Shown: positions 1,505 to 59,966 of the stretch, in pieces
Position numbering within the stretch: the first letter of the stretch is position 1
Layout: the number at the start of each line of letters is the position of its first letter
Assembly: GCA_001464585.1 (NCBI GenBank)
Contig: LNFF01000021.1
Span: 1-61,524 of the forward strand
From: Gammaproteobacteria bacterium Ga0077554
GTDB taxonomy: Bacteria; Pseudomonadota; Gammaproteobacteria; Ga0077554; Ga007554
Direction: 5' to 3'
Length of the DNA stretch: 61,524 nt
Made by a program: the position numbers and the translations under genes
Notes under the pieces: model-generated
Told to the model about the DNA's origin: nothing
Databases searched by the model: none
The model's input: the letters and a program-made list of their open reading frames with translations, nothing else

Positions 1505-4500
1505 ATGAGGATTTACCCTTTGGATAATGCAGCCAGTCAGAAATTGCTAGGGAACGAACTTGATTCCACGCTCTTACTATCGGTTTTAACGGCAGTAAAA
1601 AAAGGCGATTTTTCGACGCGTCTGCCGCTCGATTGGAGTGGGGTCAATGGCAAAATTGCCGATGCGCTTAACGATATCATTGAGATTAATGACAAAATTG
1701 CGCGCGGGTTAGCTCGCGTGAGCGATGCGGTAGGCACAGAAGGAAAGCTCGAGGAACGCATGACGCTGGTTTCAACTGATGGCGCATGGTCGCGGCAGAT
1801 CGAATCAATCAATAGGCTCATTCTGGATCTGAGCCGCCCTACAACGGAAATGGCACGCGTGATCGGCGCGGTCGCAAAGGGTGATCTTACCCAAAGAATG
1901 ATTATAGATGCGGAAGATCGCCCCATTCAGGGCGAGTTCATGCGCACCGCAAAAATCGTTAATACCATGGTGGATCAATTGGGCTCTTTCGCTTCCGAAG
2001 TCACGCGCGTGGCGCGCGAGGTGGGCTCCGAAGGTAAACTCGGCGGCCAGGCGCAAGTGAAAGGCGTGGCGGGCACCTGGAAAGATCTCACCGACAATGT
2101 GAACTCCATGGCCAGCAATCTTACCAGCCAGGTGCGCAACATCGCGGACGTGACCACCGCCGTGGCGAACGGCGACCTGTCGAAAAAAATCACCGTGGAT
2201 GTGAAAGGCGAAATCCTCGAACTGAAAAATACCATCAATACCATGGTGGATCAGTTGGGATCCTTCGCTTCCGAAGTCACGCGCGTGGCGCGCGAAGTGG
2301 GTTCCGAAGGTAAACTCGGCGGCCAGACGCAAGTGAAAGGTGTCGCGGGCACCTGGAAAGATCTCACCGACAATGTGAACTCCATGGCCAGCAATCTTAC
2401 CAGCCAGGTGCGCAACATCGCGGATGTGACCACCGCCGTGGCGAACGGCGACCTGTCGAAAAAAATCACCGTGGACGTGAAAGGCGAAATCCTCGAACTG
2501 AAAAATACCATCAATACCATGGTGGATCAGCTCAATGCTTTCGCGGGCGAGGTAACCCGCGTGGCGCGTGAGGTAGGTACCGAAGGTAAACTTGGCGGCC
2601 AGGCGCAAGTAAAGGGCGTGGCAGGCACCTGGAAAGACCTGACAGATAATGTCAATTACATGGCGGGAAATCTCACCGACCAGGTGCGTGGTATTGCACG
2701 TGTAGTAACTGCCGTGGCAAATGGTGACCTAAAGACAAAATTGACCGTGAAAGCCGAAGGAGAAATTGCCTCGTTGGCGGAAACTATCAACAACATGATC
2801 GGCACCTTGGCAACCTTCGCTGATCAGGTGACGAGTGTGGCGCGCGAGGTAGGCGTAGAAGGTAAGCTGGGGGGGCAGGCGCGGGTACCCGGCGCCTCGG
2901 GCACCTGGAAAGATCTCACGGATAATGTTAACCAGCTCGCCGCCAATTTGACCACGCAGGTACGCGCCATCGCTGAAGTAGCGACTGCCGTGACCAAGGG
3001 TGATTTGACGCGCTCTATCGGCGTGGCGGCCGAAGGCGAAGTTGCAATCCTTAAAGACAACATCAATGAAATGATCCGCAACCTCAAGGACACCACTGAC
3101 AAGAATACCGAGCAGGATTGGCTGAAGACCAATCTGGCACGCTTCACGCGCCTTCTGCAGGGGCAACGCGAAATGTTTACAGTATGCAAACTCATTCTGT
3201 CCGAGTTGGCGCCCCTGGTAAAAGCCCAACACGGGGTATTTTATGGAATGGAAGGAGTAAAAGAGGATGCCCGGCTGGAATTGCGTGCAGGGTATGCTTA
3301 TAAAGAGCGCGAGGGTCTGCCGCAGCGCTTCCGTCTCGGTGAAGGGCTGGTAGGGGAATGCGCACGCGTCAAGCAACGCATTCTATTGACGAATGTGCCC
3401 CGTGATTATATACAAATCAATTCGGGGCTCGGCGAAGCAACGCCCCTGAATGTCATACTATTGCCGGTGATGTTTGAAGGCGCCACCAAAGCGGTGATCG
3501 AACTGGCGTCTTTTGAGCGGTTTAGCCCCACCCATCTTGCCTTCCTCGAACAGCTCACCGAAAGTATCGGTATCGTACTTAATACCATTGAGGCTAATTC
3601 GCGCACTGAGGTATTACTCGAACAATCGCAAAAAATGGCGCAGGAATTGCAAAATCAACAGGAAGAATTACAGCATACCAATGCGGAACTGCAAGAAAAA
3701 GCCCGCTTGCTGGCCGCCCAGAATACTGAAGTCGAACGCAAAAACCAGGAAGTGGAAATTGCCAAGTTGTCGCTTGAGGAAAAGGCTGCCCAGTTATCGC
3801 TAACCTCGAAATACAAATCAGAATTTCTTGCCAATATGTCACACGAACTGCGCACCCCGCTCAACAGCCTGCTATTGCTCTCGCAACAGTTACGCGATAA
3901 TCCGGAACAAAACCTTAGCGAAAAACAGGTTAAATATGCCAGCACTATTTTTGAGTCGGGCAATGATTTATTAAACCTCATCAACGATATTCTCGATCTA
4001 TCAAAAATCGAATCTGGCACTGTAACAGCGGATATTGGAGAAGTCCTCTTTGCAGACCTGCGCGGTTTTGTAGAACAAACTTTCCGCCATATGGCCGAGG
4101 ACAAAAAACTCAGGTTTGCGGTTAATCTTGAAAATAACATTCCCTATTCGCTCTTTACTGACGAACGCCGCCTGAAGCAAATCATCAAGAATTTATTATC
4201 CAATGCTTTCAAATTTACTCCACAAGGAGAAGTGGCTCTCACCATGGGGGTAGCGGCCTCAGGATGGAATGAGTCTCACCCAATTTTAAGCAAAGCAGCC
4301 ACAGTGGTTTCTTTTGCTGTAAGTGATTCTGGAATTGGCATTCCCGCCGAGAAACAACGGGTAATTTTTGAAGCGTTTCAGCAAGCCGATGGCACTACCA
4401 GCCGCAAATATGGGGGCACGGGGCTGGGGCTGGCTATCAGCCGTGAATTGGCGCGCTTGCTGGGTGGAGAAATCACATTAAAGAGCACGCCGGGGGAAGG

Positions 4501-5953
4501 CAGTCTCTTTACCTTATACCTTCCCCTGCATTTTGCGGCCACCGCCAAATCAAACGACGCCCTCCATGGATTCATCTCCAGACTGGGGCTGGGTCGACGC
4601 GGCGGCAAAAGCCCTGCAGAAAGCCACACGACACCTTCATTAAGCGCGGCCACACCCGCAAACGAGCTACGATCTGATGCACAGCAACATACGTCAACCC
4701 CACAAACAATGACAGAAATTACATCCACAGCCATAATAACCAGCCACATCCCCGATGATAGACACGACATTCAACCCGGTGATCGGGTGTTGCTCATCGT
4801 CGAAGACGACCCGCACTTTGTCCGTACCTTGCTGGACTTCGCCCATGAGCGTGGATTTAAAGTACTGGTGGCGATGCAAGGTGACATCGCACTCGCTTTA
4901 GCCAAACAATACCGCCCCGATGCCATCACGCTGGATATTGTACTGCCCGACACCAGCGGCTGGAGTGTCCTTGATCAACTTAAACATGAACCCACTACGC
5001 GTCACATTCCGGTGCATATTATTTCAGTGGAGAAAGAGGAAGAACGGGGTCGCAAATCAGGTTCCCTGGCCAGCACCCTGAAACCGGTTGACAAAGAAAC
5101 CCTGGATCATACTTTTCATCGTCTGGAAGACTTTCTCGCACGCAAAACCAAGCAGCTCCTGGTAGTGGAGGATAACGAGATAGAACGTGACCACATGATC
5201 GAATTGCTTGGCAGTGACGGCGTTCATATTACTACTACAACCACCGGTCACGAGGCTTTAAAGTTATTGAAGCAAAAAAGTTTTGATTGCCTGGTACTCG
5301 ATCTTGGGCTGCCCGACGCGTCGGGATTTGAAATAATAGACGCAATCAAAAAAGACCCAAGCCTGCACACCTTACCCATCATTGTGTATACCGCCCGGGA
5401 TCTCACCCCGGACGAAGAAAATCGGCTCAAGATGGCATCTACCTCCGTGATCATTAAAGATGCGCGTTCTCCAGAACAGTTATTGAGCGAAGCCACCTTA
5501 TTCCTGCATCGCGCGGAATCTGAATTATCATTCGCCAAGCAAAAAATTCTGCAGCAGGGCCGCAAACATGATCCTGTGCTGGCTGGCAGGACGGTGTTGA
5601 TTGTAGATGACGATGTCCGTAATATTTTCTCTCTTACCGCCGTGCTGGAGCGCCATCACATGCGTACCCTATTTGTTGAAAATGGCAAAGATGCCATTAG
5701 CCTGCTAAAAAAGACTCCCGATATTGATATTGTTTTAATGGATGTGATGATGCCGGATATGGATGGTTACGAAACCATGCGCGCCATCCGCAAACTACCG
5801 GAACTGAAATCTTTACCTATTATTTCAGTAACTGCAAAAGCAATGAAAGGTGACCGTGAAAAATGCCTTGAAGCTGGCGCCTCAGATTATATTCCGAAAC
5901 CTGTAAATACCGGGCAATTATTATCTTTGTTGCGCGTGTGGCTTTATCATTAA
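1505..5953 (+). CDS. Soluble poly-HAMP hybrid histidine kinase with GAF and three receiver domains
   Basis: The product is 1482 residues long with no signal peptide or membrane segment, so it is cytoplasmic. Residues about 25-523 are a chain of HAMP-like repeats. From residue 156 the period is exactly 92 residues (units at 156, 248, 340 and 432), each carrying [21 protein letters not shown] and AVANGDL-type motifs. A GAF domain (about 541-696), a coiled coil and a HisKA domain with phosphoacceptor His780 (SHELRTPLN) follow. The HATPase has intact N, G1, F and G2 boxes. Three receiver domains carry Asp1144, Asp1266 and Asp1413. The architecture matches the group III (Nik1-like) osmosensing kinases known from fungi and bacteria. 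The ATG at 1505 has no clear ribosome binding site. The gene ends 20 bases before a REC-GGDEF-EAL gene, a likely operon partner. Confidence 0.92.
1970..2521 (+). repeat. Tandem 276-bp near-identical repeats inside the HAMP array
   Basis: Bases 1970-2245 and 2246-2521 are two consecutive 276-bp units. By eye they differ at about ten positions, almost all synonymous, with one amino-acid change (QAQ to QTQ). The next unit, from 2522, is clearly related but much more diverged. This points to a recent duplication or gene conversion of one HAMP module. Confidence 0.9.
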
Positions 5954-14070: not shown

Positions 14071-14172
14071 GGACCACCTACGAAATAACTTTCCCATTCG
14101 TGGTGATCCTTCGACAGGCTCAGGCCGAACGGGGGGTGTGGCCACACGGGAAGTTATTTCGTAGGCGATCCT
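14070..14172. repeat. 103-bp palindromic element with long terminal inverted repeats
   Basis: The ends are inverted repeats: AGGACCACCTACGAAATAAC... at 14070 and its near-exact complement ending at 14172, with 15 bp (14077-14091 and 14151-14165) matching perfectly. Inside sits a copy of the dispersed CCTTCGACAGGCTCAGG motif (14108-14124), also found at 48.3 kb. The element abuts the GNAT stop codon. The layout resembles a small non-coding mobile repeat, though no target duplication is evident. Confidence 0.75.
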
Positions 14173-15614: not shown

Positions 15615-16193
15615 TCATTCGGGTGGTTTGTGCGCGCGCAACTGATCCAATTTGCCCGCCAGCGAAGCAGCCGATAGCTCACCCCGGCGGCTATCGATCA
15701 GCCGTCCGTGGGCGTCGTAAAACAGCGTGATGGGTAACGCCATCGAGCCGGCCACGAAGCCCAGCCTGGTGTCTCGATCTAGCGCAACGTTAGCCAGATC
15801 AAGCTGACTGGTGGACAGGTAATGTTGGACTGTCGCCCCATTTTCACCCTGATTGGCAAAGACAAAGATCGCCCATGTTTCCTGTTTCTGTGCTGCGGCA
15901 AGTACCGGCATTTCGCGTAGGCACGGGGGGCACCAGCTCGCCCATAGATTGACGACCATCGGTTTGCCATCGGCCAGTGCAGCGAGGTTTGTCGATTCGC
16001 CGGACAGCAGGGTCACCGGTATTTCAGACGGCGTCGGCTTATCCATTAGGCGCAGACCGCCCAGTATCCCATTCCATGCCAGCACCCATAACGCCAACGC
16101 CAGGACGTTCCGCTTTCGTACCGACAAACCACGCCAGCCCCGCCGGATCGCTCCCGGCATCGCCGCAATAAACGTTAAGGGATTTTTGATCAT
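15615..16193 (-). CDS. TlpA-like periplasmic thioredoxin (copy 1)
   Basis: The 192-residue protein has one N-terminal membrane anchor (about residues 27-47) and a thioredoxin domain with active site WCPPC near residues 88-92, followed by REMPVLAAAQK. Such proteins reduce or exchange disulfides in the periplasm, for example in cytochrome c maturation or copper-protein assembly. It is a close paralogue of the next gene upstream, and the two are about 70 percent identical over the domain by eye. It starts 6 bases after copy 2 ends, so the two are co-transcribed. It may partner with the (now broken) DsbD next door. Confidence 0.88.
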   Translation of the reverse strand: MIKNPLTFIAAMPGAIRRGWRGLSVRKRNVLALALWVLAWNGILGGLRLMDKPTPSEIPVTLLSGESTNLAALADGKPMVVNLWASWCPPCLREMPVLAAAQKQETWAIFVFANQGENGATVQHYLSTSQLDLANVALDRDTRLGFVAGSMALPITLFYDAHGRLIDSRRGELSAASLAGKLDQLRAHKPPE

Positions 16194-16199
16194 TGCGGC

Positions 16200-17033
16200 T
16201 CAATCTTTGGCCGAGGCATTGGCGGACTTGCGCAACGGGTTCAATTTGCTCGCCAGCGAAGCAGCCGACAGCTCACCCAGGTGGGTATCGGCCAGCCGTC
16301 CGTTGGCGTCGTAGAACAAGGTGGTTGGCAATGCCCCGGAGCCGACTTCGCGACCAAGGCTGGTGGCGGGATCGAGCAGCACATTGGTGAGATCGAGTTG
16401 ACCGGCGCTGAGGTAGCGCTGGACCGTGGCTCCATTTTCACCCTGGTTGACAAACACAAAGCGCACCCCAGTTTCGCGTTTTTGCGCGGCGGCAAGTACT
16501 GGCATTTCGCGTAGGCACGGTGGGCACCAGCTCGCCCACAGATTAACGACCATGGGTTTACCGGCAGCCAGCGCAGCAAGATCTGTCGACTCACCCGCTA
16601 GTGTCATCAACGCCAGCTTGGGCAGTGCCGGCTGTTCCGTCATGCGCAATGCGCCGAACAGCGCGCCCCACACCAGCGCCCCTGCCGCCAGCCCCAGCAT
16701 CAGCGGTTTGCGCAGTGCCGGTCGGCGCCAGCCGCGCCAGACCGCTACCAGCAACGCCGCCGCTATCCCCGCCCAAGCCGTGAACCCACCATCGCGGATA
16801 TCGAGCATGGACCAGGGCGTGCTGCGGTAAGTCTCGAACCAGAGGGTGACAAAGGCGATACGCGCCACCAGCACTGCGGCGAGCAACATGTCGCTCAAAG
16901 TATTACCTATGCCCGTTTGCTGGCGACGCCCGACCAGGTGGCCTACGCCCGCCGCCACCAGCCCGGCTACCAGCAACAGCAGCAGGCTGCTCGGCAGCGC
17001 GAAGGGCCCAAGATTCACTGAAAGCATATTCAT
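16200..17033 (-). CDS. TlpA-like thioredoxin with multi-span N-terminal membrane domain (copy 2)
   Basis: The 277-residue protein has an N-terminal region of about 140 residues with roughly four hydrophobic segments (starting LPSSLLLLLVAGLVAAGVG) and then a thioredoxin domain with WCPPC. Copy 1 lacks most of the membrane part, so copy 1 probably arose by partial tandem duplication. The ATG at 17033 overlaps the stop of the dsbD fragment (ATGA), showing translational coupling. A role in periplasmic disulfide reduction is inferred from family and neighbour. Confidence 0.86.
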   Translation of the reverse strand: MNMLSVNLGPFALPSSLLLLLVAGLVAAGVGHLVGRRQQTGIGNTLSDMLLAAVLVARIAFVTLWFETYRSTPWSMLDIRDGGFTAWAGIAAALLVAVWRGWRRPALRKPLMLGLAAGALVWGALFGALRMTEQPALPKLALMTLAGESTDLAALAAGKPMVVNLWASWCPPCLREMPVLAAAQKRETGVRFVFVNQGENGATVQRYLSAGQLDLTNVLLDPATSLGREVGSGALPTTLFYDANGRLADTHLGELSAASLASKLNPLRKSANASAKD

Positions 17034-21928: not shown

Positions 21929-22747
21929 TCAGCGACAATGCAAACGGCGATGTTGCGTAGCCGGGAAATTACGGCGTATGCTTTCCAGGCGATTATGGTC
22001 AATCTCCGCGCTTATGAACCCTGAACCTCGCGGCAACCGATCTAATACTACACCCCATGGATCGACAATCATACTGTCACCATGAGTCTCACGGCCACCC
22101 ACATGATAGCCGCCTTGCGCTGCCGCGATAACGTAACATAGATTTTCGATGGCTCGGGCGCGCACCAGGATTTCCCAGTGCGCTTTCCCCGTAATAGCTG
22201 TAAACGCGGAGGGGATGGCGAATAGCTCCATACCTTTGTCCAGCAATTGCCGGAAAAGTTCAGGAAAGCGCAGATCGTAGCATACCGCCAGACCCAACTT
22301 GCCGAATGGGGTATCAATGACCACTGGCGTATCTCCCGCCTCAATGGTTTCTGATTCGGTATAGTTTTCGCCATTTTCTGTCACCTGCACATCAAACATG
22401 TGCATCTTGTCATAACGGGCGACCCGCGTGCCCGTGGGGTCAAATACGAGGCAGGCGGCACGCACTTTCTGGTCGTGATCAGCGACCAGCGGCAGTGTGC
22501 CGCCGACCAGCCAAACGCCATTTCTTGAAGCCTGATGCGCCAGAAAATCCTGCAATGGTCCGCCGTTGTCCGGCTCACGGATTTTCACCTTGTCAAACTC
22601 GCTCAGCCCCATCAAGGCAAAGTTTTCGGGCAGCACCACCAGCCCCGCACCAGCCGCAGCGGCACGGTTTATCAAGCCCGATACCTCCAGTAAATTGGCG
22701 CTGATATTCGGCCCCGATGCCATTTGAATAGCGGCAATTTGACTCAT
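21929..22747 (-). CDS. Carbon-nitrogen hydrolase of the Nit1/deaminated-glutathione amidase type
   Basis: The 272-residue enzyme has the nitrilase-superfamily triad: Glu in VVLPENFAL, Lys in YDKMHMFDV and Cys in LAVCYDLRFPELFR. These contexts match the Nit1 branch, which repairs deaminated glutathione. It overlaps the upstream hypothetical gene by four bases (ATGA), so the two are translationally coupled. Nit between yhdP and tldD is a conserved order in many gammaproteobacteria. The short gap before tldD carries an inverted repeat, TTCACTT/AAGTGAA (21890-21909). Confidence 0.92.
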   Translation of the reverse strand: MSQIAAIQMASGPNISANLLEVSGLINRAAAAGAGLVVLPENFALMGLSEFDKVKIREPDNGGPLQDFLAHQASRNGVWLVGGTLPLVADHDQKVRAACLVFDPTGTRVARYDKMHMFDVQVTENGENYTESETIEAGDTPVVIDTPFGKLGLAVCYDLRFPELFRQLLDKGMELFAIPSAFTAITGKAHWEILVRARAIENLCYVIAAAQGGYHVGGRETHGDSMIVDPWGVVLDRLPRGSGFISAEIDHNRLESIRRNFPATQHRRLHCR

Positions 22748-23304
22748 GGTATTTCCACTCCATTAACGGTGTCTGTAACTTCCTTGATTTGAAACGGCTC
22801 GGTAATAACCGATGGCGGCGCGGATGGAGTATTTTGCCCATTCATCGAACCCTGCATCACTACCACTTGACTAATATTAATCACATCGCCGTTACTGCCG
22901 GGTATCAGCTGAATGCGATTCGAAGGCAATCCCAGCGCCACCAACCAATCGCGCAACTCTTCCACCCATATCTCGCCGAGTTCATCTTCAGGATAATGCA
23001 GCGCTACACCGCTCCGGGGCTGCCGCACCACTTTCTGCATCACCGCCAATAATCCGGGCAATATCACGAGTGTTTCGCCACTGCGCGGCGATTTTTCCTG
23101 CGGTCGCGATACTTGTCCATCCATGGACGGCGCGTTCCATTGCTCGGCAGTCACGCTCAATGCCGCAGTGCCCTGAGTCGGTGGAGAAGATTCTGCGCTC
23201 TCCGGAAAAACTTCTACCGCCAAGCCAGATGACGGCATACTCAAGGCGCCCACCCACATCATGCACCCCACTACGCAGGAGTATTTCAAATTAAAAAATC
23301 GCAT
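22744..23304 (-). CDS. Hypothetical exported protein
   Basis: The 186-residue protein starts with a signal-peptide-like segment (about residues 8-29). It then has a Ser/Pro/Gln-rich low-complexity linker and a small ordered region (about 85-150) with VILPGLLAVMQKVV, EDELGEIWVEELRDWLVALG and VINISQVVVM. I recognise no family. Its position between yhdP and nit, with a four-base overlap with nit, suggests a cell-envelope role, but that is only context. Confidence 0.65.
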   Translation of the reverse strand: MRFFNLKYSCVVGCMMWVGALSMPSSGLAVEVFPESAESSPPTQGTAALSVTAEQWNAPSMDGQVSRPQEKSPRSGETLVILPGLLAVMQKVVRQPRSGVALHYPEDELGEIWVEELRDWLVALGLPSNRIQLIPGSNGDVINISQVVVMQGSMNGQNTPSAPPSVITEPFQIKEVTDTVNGVEIP

Positions 23305-23356: not shown

Positions 23357-26300
23357 TCACTGCTGTGGCGCTGCCACGCCGTCTGCTTTTAACGCTTCTT
23401 TTTCCTTGGATGACAAATCAAATTCCGGATTATCCCACGCACCTTTCACGGTATATTGGTAACGCGTAATTCGATCCAGCTCTGATTGAAACAACTTTTG
23501 AAACAGGAGCACCGCCGCGCCCAATCCTGGCCCTCCAGTCAACATACCTGCCAAAGGTAATGCTGTCGACGAGCGCGGCGTTACCGTAATGCGTTGGTCA
23601 TAATCTTTAGCGGCCAAACCGACCCGCCCCTGTACCGCAACATGCGCCGAGGGGCCACTCATGGTCAGGTTAGAGGTGTGGGCATTACCGTCCGTAATAA
23701 CAAAATCCCCTGCTATATCATCAAAACTGAAGCCTTTGCTAAATAGCCCTTTAAAGTTCAGGGCCATCAAACCAAATACCCGCCCCGCACCGGGATCAAC
23801 ATCCAGCAATCGGCCTTTTTTAAGGTTCATGCGCAAATTACCCTGCAACTGCGCCAGCGTAAAAGCAGCGGGAGACGCCGGCCAATGCGCTGTCAACTCA
23901 GCCTGCCCGGTGCCTTCGGCAAAGGTATCGGCAAAACCAAATTCACGAAAAGTTTTACCCAGGTTATTGCTGTTGATGCTCAGGTTCAACGTGGTCATGG
24001 GCTGCATCTGCTTATCCACTACCCAGTCTCCCAGCGCGGTAATTTTCGTTGCATCTGACGCCATCTGTAAATTATCCACATGCAGCCCCATGGGCTGTTG
24101 CGATGTCACCAGATTCAAGCTGCCAAAATCCATACCATGATATAAAAACCGTTTGCTGGTAATGCGCATGGGTGGGAGCTGGCGCGGATCCATCACGCTC
24201 TCTTTAACACCGCTGTTTTCATCATTGCTCCGATTTTTATCATTGCTTTGGGTCAACTCAAGATAATCAAAATCAGCAGAGACTGGCGCATGGGTGTCAT
24301 GCGGTACGCGCACCTTGCCTGTTACCCGGTTGCTGGCAATATTGCCGCTCCATTCCTGGGCGCTGTTTTTAGCTTGCAGCCGAACGTCTTTTAAAGATTG
24401 CCCAAAAACCTCAAGGGTTCCAATCCGCGCATCCACCTCATTTACTTGCGGCGCATTCGATGCAGTGCCGCTACGCGTATCACCCTCAATCCCAGCCCCA
24501 CTCAAGCCCAGCCATTCGGTAATGGAAAACGCGGGTAACTCACCGGTAATACGCCATCCCGGCACGGAGGGCAGCGTGATGTTCCCCCCAGCCCCGTCAC
24601 CCGTTCCACTCCCAAGGCGCACTTCGCCACGCTCCAGGACATTATTTTTATTCACGCTAAATACACTTTTAAAAAAATCACCATATTTTACATTAAAAGT
24701 AGTGTTTGCGGTACGTGGAAGTGCCGTTTCTACGACCAATCCACGCAGTTGCGCCGCCGACTTATTTAAGGGCGCGGGTAATGCGATGGCCATACCCTTC
24801 AACAGTGATTCAATACGCAATACGGCGCTCGGCACGCCTTTTTCCGAATCAGCAACACGCAATGTGGCCAACCAGCTTGACTGGCCTTTGAAATAAGTAA
24901 ATAAAGGCCCTTTAAAATGCTGCGCCAAGGTTTGGGCATCGACCTTACCGCGCGCTTCAAAACGGAGGGCGTTTTGCTGTCCGGCCTGGGTAGTTACATC
25001 AATCTCAACTGCCTCATCCAGCAACATGGCGCGAATATTACGCGCCCTGAGCGTTGACTCAGTAAAATTTAAAGCACCCTTAACCTGGGAAAACTTCACA
25101 CCCCCTTCCATGCCCATATCGATAAAGGCCAGGCTGCTGTTATCAAAACCCAACGTGCCCTTGATACGATCTGTGGCTGTGGCTGCCAACGGCATCTGAA
25201 TCTCCAGATCCAGTGTGCTACGGCCTTGCGCACGGGCACTCTCTAAATATTTTCCAATTTTTTTATCTAAAGGAGTTTCTCTTACATAGCGCAACACATC
25301 GGCTGTGGGGCCTTCTGCCTGGCCACGAATAATTAACACGGGTGGGTTGCCGCCGAGATCTTCAATAGTCACTTGCACCTGTTGAATCTGCGATTCCAGG
25401 CTTCTGGCTGCAACGGCATTGATCTCCATGCGGCGTTCGCTGAACACCACTTCAGTTTCTATATTTTCCAGACGCGGCCAACCGGGAGCGTAATCGAGAA
25501 TGCCTTCGCTAACGTTGAAGCGCACTTCGAATCGACCCGTCAACTGACCACCAGCCTGACTGGCTCCTGTATCAAACGGAAAATCTGCAACACGGCCGTG
25601 AAACAATGCCTGGCCTTGGGTAACCGTGCCGCCGACCAGCGCGCGATCCAACCAGGCCACGGTATCTTGCGGCATAATGCTTACGGGTAAGTAACGTGCC
25701 GCATGCTCAACATTCCCTTTGGTCGCTCCCGGCATCCTGCCTCCCGCGACACTAGCAGAACCCTTCGCTTGCGCTCTTCCCTGTGCGTTGGAAAAATCGG
25801 CGACAAGACTTATAAAAGGCGATGCATGGTTATCAGGAATATCAATTGTCGCCTGAACTGAGCCGTCGATATCGGCATTTGCGACAGTCAATGCAGGGGT
25901 TTGAATACGCCATCCGCCGTCCTGATGCCGCCATGCCACAGAACCACTCAGCGTATCGAGAGACAGCGGCGCCCTGAATAACCCATCAAAAGAAAGTTGT
26001 GCCTTGGCCGTATCCAGCACCAGTGAGCCAGACTGATCATTGACTTGCACACTGCCGTCCAACCCCGTAACGGTGGGCAGGTTTTTCCAGCCGGAAAAAG
26101 CAAGATCATTAAAATTCGCACGCGCCGCTAATGTATGTTTATCAGCGGCTTCATCATGCCAATAACGAACATACGCATTACCAAGCTGCGCACGGGGCTG
26201 CATGGCCGTTAACGCCTCTCGGGTAGCGTCATCCACCAGATTACTGAGCAACATCATCGCCACTGCGTCTTGCAGTAGCACATCGTGCGCCCCTACCTCC

Positions 26301-27511
26301 ACCATAGTGGCATTGCCTTGCCGGGTCAGCGCCACTTTAAAATTGATTTTTTTAGTAGCCACTTCTTCACGCGCGGGAATGTTATTGGCATCACCGGCAC
26401 GCGCCAATACCACACGATCCGCATCCAACCGCCAACCCTGCGCATTGCGGCGCCAATCAAAATGTCCGGCAAGCTTATGCAGGAATAACGAGGACATACC
26501 GGTCGCTCCTGCGCATCCTGCGACGTGCATGGATGCACTAGTGTCGCGGGAGGCAGGATGCCGGGAGCGACCGCCCGCGACACTTGCGCATCCCTGCGCG
26601 GCGGAATTTTTCAGATGCAGCCCCGTAAGTGCCGCTTCACCCTGAACACGCTGCAAGCGGGCATTTTGCCACGTACCCCATAGCTTGAAATCCAGGCCCC
26701 TCGCTACGCTCTCCCCGGCGCCCATCCCAACATCTGCCAGCGTTCGCCCCGCCAGCCATGAGGCAAGCTCCACGGCGACGCCCTCCACATAGCCCTTACC
26801 GGACCAGCCGTTCCCCTCAAAAATATTACCCTGTAATTCCAACGCTACTTTTATGCGGGTTGCAGGGTCAGGCATCATGGCTACGGTCCCGGACAAATAA
26901 TGACGCTCACCGTTGTTGTGCAATCCAAGATGGACGCGGATAAACTGGCGCTCCTGGCCACTACGCTCATCACGCCAGCGTAACTGGCTGTCCTTAATAA
27001 CGAGATGATCCTGCTTCATCAACCATTGCTGCACTACGACTTGCGTGCGTAGATCCGTCGGCATATCTTCCAAGCCAATGATTGAAAAACTGCCGTCGCT
27101 ACGATGCAATACAGGAAGATTCAAGCCCACCAGGGTTAAATCGCCTAACTCCGGCACCCCGCCTTGCAACGTAGCCAACAGATCAAGTGCCAGGTGCGCT
27201 TCCTTAACACATGCGACACTGGGTTCATCAATTTTTTTGTGCAGGCAGGCATCTCTGATAACAAGCTGCGGACGCAACTTGTGCCATCGGACATGAACGG
27301 AACCGAGGGTGACTGGCATGCCGATATAGCTGCTTGTCCACTCCTCAATGTCGGCGCGATAATGATCCGCATCGGGCAACCAGAATCGCACCAGCGTAAT
27401 GACAATGGCCACGATGACAAGCAAACCCGCAAATACCGGCCAGGCGGCTGCTTTGCAGGATTGCTTGATACATCGCCTGACAAATCGAAGGCCACTGAAA
27501 AAAGAATTCAC
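23357..27511 (-). CDS. yhdP: YhdP, AsmA-like inter-membrane phospholipid transport protein
   Basis: The 1384-residue protein has an N-terminal membrane anchor (about residues 19-42) and a long periplasmic beta-strand bridge ending in an AsmA-like C-terminal domain (LAGMLTGGPGLGAAVLLFQKLF). YhdP carries phospholipids between inner and outer membrane. It is about 120 residues longer than the Escherichia coli protein. Part of the excess is two low-complexity inserts encoded by palindromic repeats at 25.72 and 26.5 kb. The start is a GTG (27511) without a clear ribosome binding site, 28 bases after rng. It is co-directional with rng and maf. Confidence 0.93.
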   Translation of the reverse strand: MNSFFSGLRFVRRCIKQSCKAAAWPVFAGLLVIVAIVITLVRFWLPDADHYRADIEEWTSSYIGMPVTLGSVHVRWHKLRPQLVIRDACLHKKIDEPSVACVKEAHLALDLLATLQGGVPELGDLTLVGLNLPVLHRSDGSFSIIGLEDMPTDLRTQVVVQQWLMKQDHLVIKDSQLRWRDERSGQERQFIRVHLGLHNNGERHYLSGTVAMMPDPATRIKVALELQGNIFEGNGWSGKGYVEGVAVELASWLAGRTLADVGMGAGESVARGLDFKLWGTWQNARLQRVQGEAALTGLHLKNSAAQGCASVAGGRSRHPASRDTSASMHVAGCAGATGMSSLFLHKLAGHFDWRRNAQGWRLDADRVVLARAGDANNIPAREEVATKKINFKVALTRQGNATMVEVGAHDVLLQDAVAMMLLSNLVDDATREALTAMQPRAQLGNAYVRYWHDEAADKHTLAARANFNDLAFSGWKNLPTVTGLDGSVQVNDQSGSLVLDTAKAQLSFDGLFRAPLSLDTLSGSVAWRHQDGGWRIQTPALTVANADIDGSVQATIDIPDNHASPFISLVADFSNAQGRAQAKGSASVAGGRMPGATKGNVEHAARYLPVSIMPQDTVAWLDRALVGGTVTQGQALFHGRVADFPFDTGASQAGGQLTGRFEVRFNVSEGILDYAPGWPRLENIETEVVFSERRMEINAVAARSLESQIQQVQVTIEDLGGNPPVLIIRGQAEGPTADVLRYVRETPLDKKIGKYLESARAQGRSTLDLEIQMPLAATATDRIKGTLGFDNSSLAFIDMGMEGGVKFSQVKGALNFTESTLRARNIRAMLLDEAVEIDVTTQAGQQNALRFEARGKVDAQTLAQHFKGPLFTYFKGQSSWLATLRVADSEKGVPSAVLRIESLLKGMAIALPAPLNKSAAQLRGLVVETALPRTANTTFNVKYGDFFKSVFSVNKNNVLERGEVRLGSGTGDGAGGNITLPSVPGWRITGELPAFSITEWLGLSGAGIEGDTRSGTASNAPQVNEVDARIGTLEVFGQSLKDVRLQAKNSAQEWSGNIASNRVTGKVRVPHDTHAPVSADFDYLELTQSNDKNRSNDENSGVKESVMDPRQLPPMRITSKRFLYHGMDFGSLNLVTSQQPMGLHVDNLQMASDATKITALGDWVVDKQMQPMTTLNLSINSNNLGKTFREFGFADTFAEGTGQAELTAHWPASPAAFTLAQLQGNLRMNLKKGRLLDVDPGAGRVFGLMALNFKGLFSKGFSFDDIAGDFVITDGNAHTSNLTMSGPSAHVAVQGRVGLAAKDYDQRITVTPRSSTALPLAGMLTGGPGLGAAVLLFQKLFQSELDRITRYQYTVKGAWDNPEFDLSSKEKEALKADGVAAPQQ
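25720..25755. repeat. Palindromic repeat inserted in frame in yhdP (copy 2)
   Basis: The block starting GGTCGCTCCCGGCATCCTGC and ending CGCGACACTAG is an exact reverse complement of part of the copy at 26.54-26.57 kb. In the protein it reads ASVAGGRMPGATKG, a low-complexity stretch unlike its neighbours. The reading frame is kept. Confidence 0.8.
26500..26590. repeat. Palindromic repeat inserted in frame in yhdP (copy 1)
   Basis: The block folds on itself: GGTCGCTCC..CATCCTGC (26501-26521) pairs with GCAGGATGCCGGGAGCGACC (26553-26572), with an inner GTGCAT/ATGCAC palindrome (26526-26539). A second partial tail follows to about 26590. In YhdP it encodes about 35 residues rich in Ala, Gly, Ser, Arg and His between the LHLKNS and FLHKLAGHFDWRR conserved blocks. 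The frame stays open. Confidence 0.82.
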
Positions 27512-29231: not shown

Positions 29232-29885
29232 CTAATCCATCCCGGCCTGATCCAGCACAGCAATACCAAACTCATTCAGCACCTGTGCTGTTTCATACAG
29301 GGGCAATCCCATTACACCGGAAAAACTCCCTTCAAGATGCGCAACAAATACCGCTGCCCGCCCCTGAATCGCATACCCTCCCGCCTTGCCAAGAGGTTCG
29401 CCCGTCATCCAGTAAGCGTCACGTTCCGCCGCCGTAGTCGCACGAAATGTCACGGTGCTCACGCTCAGGCGCATCGCTTCGCGCACGCCATCCACCACGG
29501 CGATAGCTGTCAACACCTGATGGCTGCGCCCCGATAATCGCTCCAGCATTTCCAGCCCATGCGCGCGGTCACGGGGCTTCCCCAGCACTTCACCTTCAAG
29601 CACTACCGCAGTATCTGCCCCCAGCGCTGGACAGGCTAACTGCGGATCACGCGCCGGGCAGGATGCCCAAGTGCCGTGAGTGCAGGGATGCACAGGAACT
29701 GCTGCCTGCCAGCCCGCCCATGCCTTCGCGCGCGCCAACCGCATCACATATGCATCAGATAATTCGTTAGCACACAACATTTCATCCACTTCAACCTGAA
29801 GGGTACGGTAACGAATCCCCAATTGATCGAGCAAATCACGGCGGCGTGGCGAAGTAGAGGCTAAATAGATTTGTGGTGCGTGCAT
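29232..29885 (-). CDS. maf: Maf-family nucleotide pyrophosphatase
   Basis: The 217-residue protein hydrolyses non-canonical nucleoside triphosphates (dTTP/UTP-type family). It has the Maf signature LASTSPRRRDLLDQLGI at the N-terminus, LGADTAVVLEGEVLGKP in the middle and the C-terminal GSFSGVMGLPL. A stretch of about 20 residues before LGADTAVV (PVHPCTHGTWASCPARDPQ) is not part of the family pattern and coincides with a palindromic repeat. ATG 29885 was chosen because it gives the family N-terminus; an upstream ATG is in frame but adds an unlikely basic extension. Confidence 0.92.
   Translation of the reverse strand: MHAPQIYLASTSPRRRDLLDQLGIRYRTLQVEVDEMLCANELSDAYVMRLARAKAWAGWQAAVPVHPCTHGTWASCPARDPQLACPALGADTAVVLEGEVLGKPRDRAHGLEMLERLSGRSHQVLTAIAVVDGVREAMRLSVSTVTFRATTAAERDAYWMTGEPLGKAGGYAIQGRAAVFVAHLEGSFSGVMGLPLYETAQVLNEFGIAVLDQAGMD
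29651..29692. repeat. Probable palindromic insert in maf
   Basis: GGGCAGGATGCCC (29656-29668) and TGCAGGGATGCA (29681-29692) are short palindromes inside the extra segment of Maf. The core GGCAGGATGCC is shared with the two yhdP inserts. The match is shorter and less secure than those. Confidence 0.5.
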
Positions 29886-30336
29886 AAACCTAAAAACAAG
29901 CCTCGATAGCCGAATAATATGCCATTTTTTCGCCCATTTTTTCCCGTAGAAACGACGCATGAGGCATTTGCAGGAGATTCCAATCGCCAGTTTCAGGTTA
30001 AAGCAGGAAGTTTCAGCTTTTAGAAGCCAAGATGCAAGCAGGAGAAGCCCGCAAAGTCAGTCAAATAACGGAATTTGTGAAAAAATCTCTTTTTTTGAAC
30101 TTTTTTAAGCGGTGTCCTATACAAATTACTGGAAAAGGAGCGTTATTTATAGCAACATTAAGTACTGGGATGCTGGTGAACGGGAATACGGTCAGATGAT
30201 TGCGTCGAACACTTCTCGGCGCCACCCACAAAGGCCGCGCCCTATCTTACAAGCACTTGAGTTAAATAGGGAATCATGAAAATTGGACTTTTATTTTCAT
30301 ATTTTAAGCCGCACGCACGCAGGGAGCGTTGAATTC
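29886..30336. other. Long intergenic stretch before the L,D-transpeptidase gene
   Basis: About 450 bases lie between divergent maf and the L,D-transpeptidase gene. I see no convincing gene. A 49-codon frame from 29959 overlaps the upstream region of maf and looks random. The stretch around 30080-30160 is AT-rich and could carry promoters. No riboswitch or RNA gene is recognised. Confidence 0.4.
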
Positions 30337-48250: not shown

Positions 48251-48340
48251 GTTCGTGGTGAGCCCTTCGATAAACTCAGGAGAGCCCTGTCGAACCACCC
48301 GCCCCGCATGCTGAGCCCTTCGACAGGCTCAGGGCGAACG
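48251..48340. repeat. Dispersed GTTCG-CCCTTCGACAGGCTCAGG repeat pair
   Basis: Two related blocks, 48251-48300 and 48306-48340, contain CCCTTCGAYARRCTCAGG and end near a GTTCG or GCGAACG motif in inverted orientation. The same motif is inside the 14.1-kb element. These are non-coding; the reading frames through them, with the peptide VRPEPVEG, are artefacts seen in many genomes. Confidence 0.8.
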
Positions 48341-48475
48341 AGGGATGTATAAGCGGACGGTATTGCGTCGCTCCCACCGAGTGCGCAAAAATGACACACG
48401 ACTAACTCGCTGCCAAGGCTCTTAACACGCCTATCGCAAATAAATATAGTGCATGCAACATTGACTCACAGGGTC

Positions 48476-57764: not shown

Positions 57765-59966
57765 CTATACCTCACCATACCGCGCGGCATCACCCAACCA
57801 ACGCTTGATCAAGGCTGGCACACGCTCCGGGTAATGCTCCAATAATATTATCGCTGCCTGCTCGATTTTGGGAATCAATGCCTGGTCGCGCACCAGATCA
57901 GCGATGTGCAATTGCAACATGCCGCTCTGCCGCGTGCCCAGCACTTCACCCGGCCCACGCAACGCCAGATCACGTCTTGCAATTTCAAAGCCATCGTTGG
58001 TTTCACGCATTGCGGCCAGACGCGTGCGGCCATCAGCCGACAGCGGGGCATGATACATCAACACACAACTGCTGCTCTGCGTGCCGCGCCCTACCCTGCC
58101 ACGCAACTGGTGCAACTGCGCCATCCCCAGGCGTTCTGCGTTTTCAATAATCATCAAGCTGGCATTGGGCACGTCCACACCGACTTCAATCACCGTGGTG
58201 GCCACCAGCAAATCCAGCGCACCCGCTTTGAATGTTGCCATGATCTGCTGTTTCTCCTGCGACTTGAGCCGTCCGTGAATCAGCCCCACGCGCAGTTCCG
58301 GCAATGACTCAGCAAGACGCAGCGCCGTGTCAGTGGCGGCCTGGCATTGCAGCATCTCAGACTCTTCAATGAGCGTACACACCCAATACGCCTGACGCCC
58401 CGCACGACAGGCGTTGCGCACGCGCTCCACTACATCAGCTCGGCGCGTGTCGGCCACCACCACCGTTTCCACCGGCGTGCGCCCCGGCGGTAATTCATCA
58501 ATCACGGAACTGTCCAGATCGGCATACGCGGTCATCGCCAGCGTACGCGGAATCGGTGTGGCCGTCATGATCAATTGATGTGGATAGCGTCCATCTTGAT
58601 TACCTTTTTCGCGCAACGCCAAGCGCTGATGCACACCAAAGCGGTGCTGCTCATCCACTACGATCAAGCCCAGATTAGCAAACCTCACACCTTCCTGAAA
58701 CAAGGCATGCGTGCCCACCACCACCGCTGCCTGGCCGGACGCAAGCCGCTCCACCACGGCTTGCCACGCCTTGCCGGTGAGTTTTCCCGACAGCCACGCC
58801 ACCTCGATCCCCAGCGGCGCCAGCCACGCCGTGAAATTTTGCAGATGCTGCTCAGCCAATAGTTCAGTAGGCGCCATCACCACCGCCTGAAAGCCCGCCT
58901 CTAACGCGTGCAACACGGCACACGCCGCCACGACTGTTTTACCCGAACCGACATCGCCCTGCACCAGCCGCTGCATGGGATGATCACAACGCAGATCATG
59001 AATGATTTCACCGAGCACACGTTGCTGCGCGCCCGTGAGCGTAAACGACAGCGCATCGAGCAAACGTCGCATCAACACGCCCGGCACATGCAACTGCGGC
59101 GCGCGTTGCTGCTCAGTTTTATTACGCAACAAACGCAGGCTCAAATGATGCGCCAGCAATTCTTCAAACGCCAAACGCTGCTGCGCGGGATGCTGGCCCT
59201 CCAGCAGCATCCGTAGCGGCGCATCCGGCGGCGGGCGATGCACATAGGCCAGCGCTTCCGTTAATGATGGCAGGCGTAACTGTTCCAGAACTTGCGGCGG
59301 CAATGCTTCGCGCAATGCGCCATCACGCATCAAATCCAATGCCTGCTGCGTGAGGGCGCGTAACATATTTTGCTGCACGCCTTCGGTGGCCGGATACACC
59401 GGCGTTAAAAATTCATCTACTTCTGGGGCGTCTTGCACTATCCCATCTTTAATAGCCTCAGATTGTAGGTCGGGCTTTAGCCCGACATGTCGGGCTAAAG
59501 CCCGACCTACACCTAATGGATTGTTGGGAATAATGCGGTATTCAGGATGTACCATTTCCAGCATGCCCGGGCCAGAACGCACCTCGCCAAAACAACGCAC
59601 CCGCGCACCGCGCACAAAAGCCGCCTGCTGTTGCGCCGAAAAATGAAAAAAGCGCAGCAACATTCCACCGCTGCCATCCGCCACACGCACCAGCAACATG
59701 CGCCGGCGCCCAAACTTGATTTCGCTTAACTGCACCTCAACAACAATCGACACTTCATCGCCCACCCGCAACGCACCGATAGACGCTACACGAGTACGAT
59801 CCTGATAACGCAACGGCAAGTGAAATAACACATCCTGCACCGTGCGGATTCCAAGTTTGGTCAACAACTCAGCCACGCGCGGGCCAACCCGTTTCAACGT
59901 GGTGACAGGCAGAGAGTCCAGCGTGGTATTTTCAGCAGGAGGTGCGATAAAGTTTATACTCGCCAA
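57765..59966 (-). CDS. recG: RecG, ATP-dependent DNA helicase
   Basis: The 733-residue helicase remodels stalled forks. It has a wedge/OB domain (RVASIGALRVGDEVSIV), Walker A GDVGSGKT (about 341-348), DEQHRFGVHQR, and IHGRLKSQEKQQ and VATTVIEVGVDVPNA in the second helicase lobe. It is longer than the Escherichia coli protein by about 40 residues. Part of this is a segment encoded by a perfect palindrome at 59464-59511, between PEYRIIPN and EFLTPVYPATEGV. The start is a TTG codon (59966) with a weak GGA upstream. Confidence 0.95.
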   Translation of the reverse strand: MASINFIAPPAENTTLDSLPVTTLKRVGPRVAELLTKLGIRTVQDVLFHLPLRYQDRTRVASIGALRVGDEVSIVVEVQLSEIKFGRRRMLLVRVADGSGGMLLRFFHFSAQQQAAFVRGARVRCFGEVRSGPGMLEMVHPEYRIIPNNPLGVGRALARHVGLKPDLQSEAIKDGIVQDAPEVDEFLTPVYPATEGVQQNMLRALTQQALDLMRDGALREALPPQVLEQLRLPSLTEALAYVHRPPPDAPLRMLLEGQHPAQQRLAFEELLAHHLSLRLLRNKTEQQRAPQLHVPGVLMRRLLDALSFTLTGAQQRVLGEIIHDLRCDHPMQRLVQGDVGSGKTVVAACAVLHALEAGFQAVVMAPTELLAEQHLQNFTAWLAPLGIEVAWLSGKLTGKAWQAVVERLASGQAAVVVGTHALFQEGVRFANLGLIVVDEQHRFGVHQRLALREKGNQDGRYPHQLIMTATPIPRTLAMTAYADLDSSVIDELPPGRTPVETVVVADTRRADVVERVRNACRAGRQAYWVCTLIEESEMLQCQAATDTALRLAESLPELRVGLIHGRLKSQEKQQIMATFKAGALDLLVATTVIEVGVDVPNASLMIIENAERLGMAQLHQLRGRVGRGTQSSSCVLMYHAPLSADGRTRLAAMRETNDGFEIARRDLALRGPGEVLGTRQSGMLQLHIADLVRDQALIPKIEQAAIILLEHYPERVPALIKRWLGDAARYGEV
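59464..59511. repeat. Perfect 48-base palindrome inside recG
   Basis: The sequence starts TGTAGGTCGGGCTTTAGCCC and runs to its exact complement ending CCCGACCTACA, centred on ACATGT. Both arms are 24 bases without mismatch. The same type of palindrome is known as a dispersed intergenic repeat in several bacterial genomes. Here it is read in frame, giving a segment with VGRALARHVGLKPDLQ. Confidence 0.92.

Follow-up and report, generated by a model that had tools for sequence, protein, structure and literature searches.

Palindromic 51-bp double-hairpin units that lie in frame in yhdP and other genes of Gammaproteobacteria

How can palindromic repeats lie inside a conserved envelope gene, yhdP, without breaking its reading frame, and where else do such repeats occur? 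We examined these questions starting from one stretch of Gammaproteobacteria bacterium Ga0077554, which we call the window (61,524 nt; positions 1 to 61,524 of contig LNFF01000021.1). The genome it comes from is a draft in 44 contigs.

Palindromic units in yhdP and nearby genes

yhdP occupies positions 23357 to 27511 on the minus strand. Its frame is open throughout, and the Pfam YhdP model (PF13116, 835.8 bits) spans residues 21-1363, which agrees with the claim of the preliminary description that the repeats are in frame. Two copies of one palindromic family had been described in this gene. Both stretches are real, but they hold three units, because the right-hand stretch consists of two units, one nested in the other. 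The first unit is a long form of 69 bp (25722 to 25790, plus strand) that adds exactly 23 residues and scores 53.2 bits with a covariance model trained on 56 copies from the genome. The second is an outer 51-bp unit (26502 to 26603, plus strand; 40.7 bits). It is interrupted by the third, an inner 51-bp unit in the opposite orientation (26521 to 26571, minus strand; 80.1 bits, E = 5.4e-16), for a total of 102 bp or 34 residues. If the inner unit is removed, the remaining 19 + 32 nt form a perfect outer unit of 51 nt. The inner unit and the 69-bp unit share an exact arm of 35 nt: as first noticed, the segments at 25721-25755 and 26538-26572 are 100% complementary over that length. The assignment to one family also stood, as a 20-nt core occurs twice in the window versus 0.02 times expected in shuffled sequences. 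In a structure prediction for the yhdP stretch, both inserts fall in segments predicted as mostly coil, with a mean pLDDT (48) that is too low for use.

Homologues of YhdP without the inserts had been anticipated, and these exist. The 69-bp insert is missing from all of the relatives in the family, in which FSN is joined directly to GN. In the relative G002, the DNA at this exact empty site reads CCCTTTG followed at once by GAAAAG. The 34-residue insert at the outer unit is missing from G001, G003, and others. We also looked for homologues that have the same protein segments encoded by unrelated DNA, which would have argued against palindromic repeats inserted in frame, and saw none.

The covariance model gave six matches in the window at E < 0.001: five features and the host of the nested one. 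Two of these features had been missed in the preliminary description. First, a 51-bp unit of a second subfamily, B, lies in frame (29652 to 29702, minus strand; 29.9 bits) in maf (29232 to 29960, minus strand; PF02545, 178.1 bits). Second, a 30-bp remnant (23103 to 23132, plus strand; 29.1 bits) lies in the open frame of a small ORF (22744-23304) that adjoins yhdP. The remnant has lost the interior of its first hairpin and retains the second hairpin whole. In G001, maf (L106) has a different insertion in the loop where the subfamily B unit sits here, so this loop seems to tolerate insertion.

The window also contains repeats of other kinds. A 276-nt repeat is present in four direct copies (95 to 65% identity) at 1951-3054, within an ORF of 1482 residues (1505-5953). 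At 59464-59511 lies an inverted repeat (TGTAGGTCGGGCTTTAGCCCGACA) whose 24-nt arms match perfectly and adjoin each other directly. Two 300-nt stretches at 15636-16529, which are 77% identical, spaced by 594, and in neighboring ORFs, look like a gene duplication. Finally, REP-like repeats with CCTTCGACAGGCTCAGG at 14108-14139 and 48256-48348 belong to a family distinct from the 51-bp units; elsewhere in the genome, a RAYT-like gene (L167) may adjoin a repeat with CCTTCGACAGGCTCAGG, as judged from the translated flank only.

Anatomy and copy number of the unit

Across the source genome, the core GGTCGCTCCCGGCATCCTGC has 87 matches with up to 3 mismatches, versus 0 for a reversed control pattern. 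Genomic copies were taken as the stretches around these matches, and the covariance model puts the number of copies at about 117. The unit is 51 bp long and comprises hairpin 1, a linker ACT(T/A), hairpin 2, and the tail GGCG. Hairpin 1 has an outer 5-bp stem that encloses an inner GGCA/TGCC hairpin, so that the whole unit reads GTCGC....GGCA...TGCC....GCGAC, ACT(T/A), a second hairpin such as GTGCA....TGCAC, and GGCG. Many copies end in CGTC beside hairpin 2. The edges of the unit are sharp: alignment columns beyond them are low in information, and 48 copies stop exactly at 51. Automatic end-finding was unsuccessful for 29 of the 87 copies (mostly long, nested, or decayed), and these were read by eye. 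The other frequent forms found in this way are 69 bp, 66 bp (with hairpin 1 extended), and 102 bp (nested), all of them multiples of three; one copy in the source genome is 52 bp. Tandem copies have a period of 51 or 69 bp.

Pairing within the unit is well preserved. Across 56 copies, 95.2% of cells are paired, and pairing falls to about 20% if the partners are slid by one column. In the same copies, 78 cells have changed on both sides, as compared to 26.5 in shuffles. The core used for finding copies corresponds to unit positions 1-19, which limits the variation that can be seen in hairpin 1. Hairpin 2 falls beyond the search core, and in four of its pairs both sides have changed.

Subfamily B, whose core GCGGTTCTTGCGCATCCCTGCGCTCACCGCACTTGGGCATCCTGCCCGGCG has 32 matches in the genome, agrees with the main unit in length, linker, tail, and hairpin order, as read from its sequence. 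At L067, L070, and L071, we also found longer intergenic repeats, nearly identical to one another, that place a unit between GACCGCCATGGATGGC and GCAACGCAGGAGCAGTTGC. These are perhaps a larger composite element.

Insertion in genes and empty sites

To ask how often the frame of the host gene is kept, we scored coding potential in the flanks by codon usage (240 nt on each side), independently of the insert. In the source genome, strand and phase are kept in 32 of the 36 copies with coding sequence on both sides. Among copies with such flanks, strand and phase are also kept in 22 of 25 in G332, which belongs to another, distant family, and in 17 of 19 from ten further genomes. By a looser test, a genome-wide count places 46 of the 87 source-genome matches in open genes. 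None of the 10 copies of 50 or 52 nt (most of them from one genome) was found inside a gene. Most of the sampled units in G042 are 52 bp (L199, L207, L338-L340, and L342-L344), and none of these was found inside a gene.

In 32 of 56 copies, a stop closes none of the six frames, versus 11% of shuffled units. With frames numbered from the unit's first base, the 85 in-frame copies are distributed as 48 in frame -2, 20 in +0, 9 in -1, 6 in +2, and 1 each in +1 and -0. Thus, the four mostly open frames hold 83 of the 85, and the two that are nearly unused are those most often closed by stop codons (open in 39 of 56 copies versus 50-56 for the others). Since the unit has a length divisible by three and almost no stops in four of its six frames, many insertions leave the host protein readable. 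We infer from the open frames, with no expression data, that the inserts are translated as part of the host protein; for example, the inferred insert peptide within EtfB is VAPGILPLATLVHPCTA.

According to curated models, the hosts in the source genome include pheT, purH, smc, aroQ, etfB, glk, pgl, gpsA, recJ, and rlmL. In two genomes of one distant family, they include valS (which has two inserts), eno, independent phosphoglycerate mutase, oligopeptidase A, priA, recG, folC, mannose-1-phosphate guanylyltransferase, tgt, and glmM. We did not find a second, near-identical intact copy of the tested host genes in the source genome.

To identify empty sites, we searched insert-free proteins against genomes from the same genus and the same family. 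A relative suitable for comparison was available for 19 loci, and at 14 of these a relative has an exact empty site, with no net gap where the flanks meet. For example, at the pheT site, three relatives have TLLICDAR followed directly by QPQAMAGI, or something very close. In the clean cases at the DNA level, the filled site exceeds the empty one by just 51 or 69 nt, and these clean pairs show no target duplication beyond one possible G. The base 5' of the unit is G in 31 of 36, 33 of 40, and 10 of 12 copies; in G244 and G364, it is mostly A.

Insertion sites vary even among members of the genus, and four are common to the source genome and G002 (smc, cysE, a methyltransferase, and C34). The shared copy in smc has undergone a compensated change in place (C35-G46 to T35-A46), which implies either that pairing was kept after insertion or that one arm serves as a template for the other. 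This copy and the strong excess of compensatory changes are what might be expected if the hairpins are kept for a cellular function (such as RNA signals or protein linkers) and are spread by ordinary recombination. But the host genes are functionally unrelated to one another, the orientation and frame of the units vary, the sites vary within the genus, and template switching from arm to arm could keep the arms paired without selection. We consider a cellular function to be quite improbable.

Instead, a short, non-autonomous mobile element is the likely source of the units, which would be its copies, and many of its insertions leave the host protein readable. The copies are dispersed and missing from the corresponding sites of relatives; they add exactly 51 or 69 bp, mostly after a G and with no target duplication seen, and they nest inside one another. 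We infer that selection would remove insertions that shift the frame or bring in stop codons, while those in tolerant places would survive as near-neutral peptides that may later shrink in frame.

Distribution, relation to known elements, and possible mechanism

Within the source family, seven of eight genomes have 15-123 copies, and the remaining one has a single match. Among named relatives, the closest to the source are the metagenome genomes JAHFRW010000003 (isolate nzgw583) and JAGVME010000108. We had considered that the units might be confined to one bacterial family, and a class-wide scan overturned this: 30 of 369 sampled genomes of Gammaproteobacteria match a strict 23-nt pattern, with a patchy distribution. 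The covariance model counts 111 copies in G332, 44 in G042, 26 in G119, and 18 in G364; G244 has 15 copies. In a sample of the phylum weighted to other taxa, 1 of 398 genomes matched, and this was the source genome itself. We found no units in viral contigs or in E. coli genomes, and phages gave one partial match of 28 nt. The sampled copies in G042, G244, and G364 are all outside genes, so insertion in genes is not universal, and whether it happens depends on the host or on the past of the copies concerned.

A complete plasmid of Lonsdalea populi (NZ_CP072857) has a unit in a DNA primase gene, where it reads VAPAHPAPATLGHPCPA. The first 32 bases of this unit are those of the outer unit of yhdP, and plasmid primases from Enterobacter and others align across the site once the insert is left out. 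In principle, repeats like these could be artefacts of draft assembly: the source genome is in 44 pieces, and one contig of G002 starts inside the yhdP element. Given the complete plasmid, the presence of units in many independent genomes, and the cysE and smc sites shared with G002, we give almost no weight to this concern.

Searching Rfam over the region returned no family and one sub-threshold miRNA match, which we put down to chance. Literature searches with the unit sequence and peptide found no description of it, but coverage of subscription journals was poor, so a prior report is not excluded. The preliminary description had likened the repeats to Rickettsia palindromic elements (RPEs). 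RPEs, described from Rickettsia, have terminal inverted repeats and a length of about 105-150 bp (105-146 bp in PMC2229807). Like the protein-coding palindromes of Wolbachia, they lie in frame in unrelated and often conserved genes, with an unknown transposase and no established target duplication (PMC2229807, PMC10969869). The likeness holds for behavior, in that dispersed palindromic units lie in frame in many unrelated genes. It does not extend to length (51 or 69 bp), architecture (two tandem hairpins), or host range (Gammaproteobacteria), and on these features, with sequence left aside, the units do not appear to be members of the RPE family and are closest to it in behavior only. Bacterial MITEs such as ERIC, Correia/NEMIS, and YPAL are also non-autonomous and dispersed, and some are fused in frame to genes (PMC2229807). 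However, MITEs are about 100-200 bp and usually have terminal inverted repeats and target duplications. The units show neither; their ends are GTCGC and GGCG.

REP superfamilies are short, high-copy hairpins that are mostly intergenic, with some inside genes; CGTC REPs have an 8-9-bp stem beginning with AT, a 4-5-nt loop, a CCA tail, and no linked transposase (PMC3733652). The units are similarly short, high-copy, partly intragenic, and, like CGTC REPs, without a linked transposase. An alternative is that the units are palindromes of the REP type, mobilized by a REP-associated tyrosine transposase (RAYT) resident in the genome. IS200-type transposase domains are present in the source genome and most carriers, such enzymes fit the absence of target duplication, and the CGTC beside hairpin 2 in many copies recalls CGTC-tagged REPs. 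But a unit-like match lies within about 1.5 kb of just four among 60 IS200-type loci (three distinct contigs and one match to half a unit), and none of the 60 is flanked on both sides. G244 has units and no detectable Y1 or IS200-type transposase domain. Also, REPs are single hairpins of 20-40 bp, while the units have a fixed 51-bp, two-hairpin form with 5-bp stems, no AT start, and a GGCG tail. Only some copies have CGTC after hairpin 2, and genes hold roughly half or more of the source-genome copies. Unlike GTAG-tagged REPs, the units have no GTAG tag and do not flank a transposase on both sides at any of the 60 loci. A RAYT link, pursued through two family searches and flank scans, was negative, and we view movement by a RAYT as unlikely.

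If the units are mobile, how do they move? The hairpins may persist because a trans-acting enzyme recognizes them, most plausibly as single-stranded DNA that is joined after a G in the manner of IS200/IS605 elements. This is inferred by analogy, is the weakest part of our account, and remains tentative; no enzyme has been identified. Hairpins at both ends, a G before most units, and the lack of duplication recall IS200/IS605 elements without settling the match, as the target is just one base and G244 and G364 prefer A. Spread through an RNA intermediate is another route. It has been proposed for the double-hairpin elements of Allomyces mitochondria by similar reasoning; those elements lack flanking duplications, and some insertions in coding regions stay in the transcripts (PMC2800124). 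The units resemble these elements, and related hairpin elements of sponges, in having two hairpins per unit and no flanking duplication. Unlike the units, the Allomyces and sponge elements are organellar, and no construction in multiples of three is known for them. A DNA route fits equally well. Spread through RNA seems improbable, but it is not excluded.

More broadly, the units could represent a superfamily of 51-bp double-hairpin elements that had gone unrecognized, has spread horizontally in Gammaproteobacteria by an unknown mover, and has repeatedly added peptides of 17 or 23 residues to essential enzymes. Its form would keep it harmless in genes, with common variants that are multiples of three, few stops in most frames, and no target duplication. 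We regard this broader view as plausible rather than established.

According to titles cited in PMC10969869 and PMC2229807, protein-coding palindromes were described as unique to Rickettsia and later also found in Wolbachia. The phenomenon is now seen in Gammaproteobacteria, which are unrelated to these bacteria, with genomes of about 3 Mb, more than 100 copies, and insertions in genes like pheT, purH, valS, eno, recG, and priA. Many pairs of filled and empty alleles from close relatives make two questions testable: how such hairpins spread when no transposase is known for them, and how a ready-made insertion of 17 residues affects an essential enzyme.
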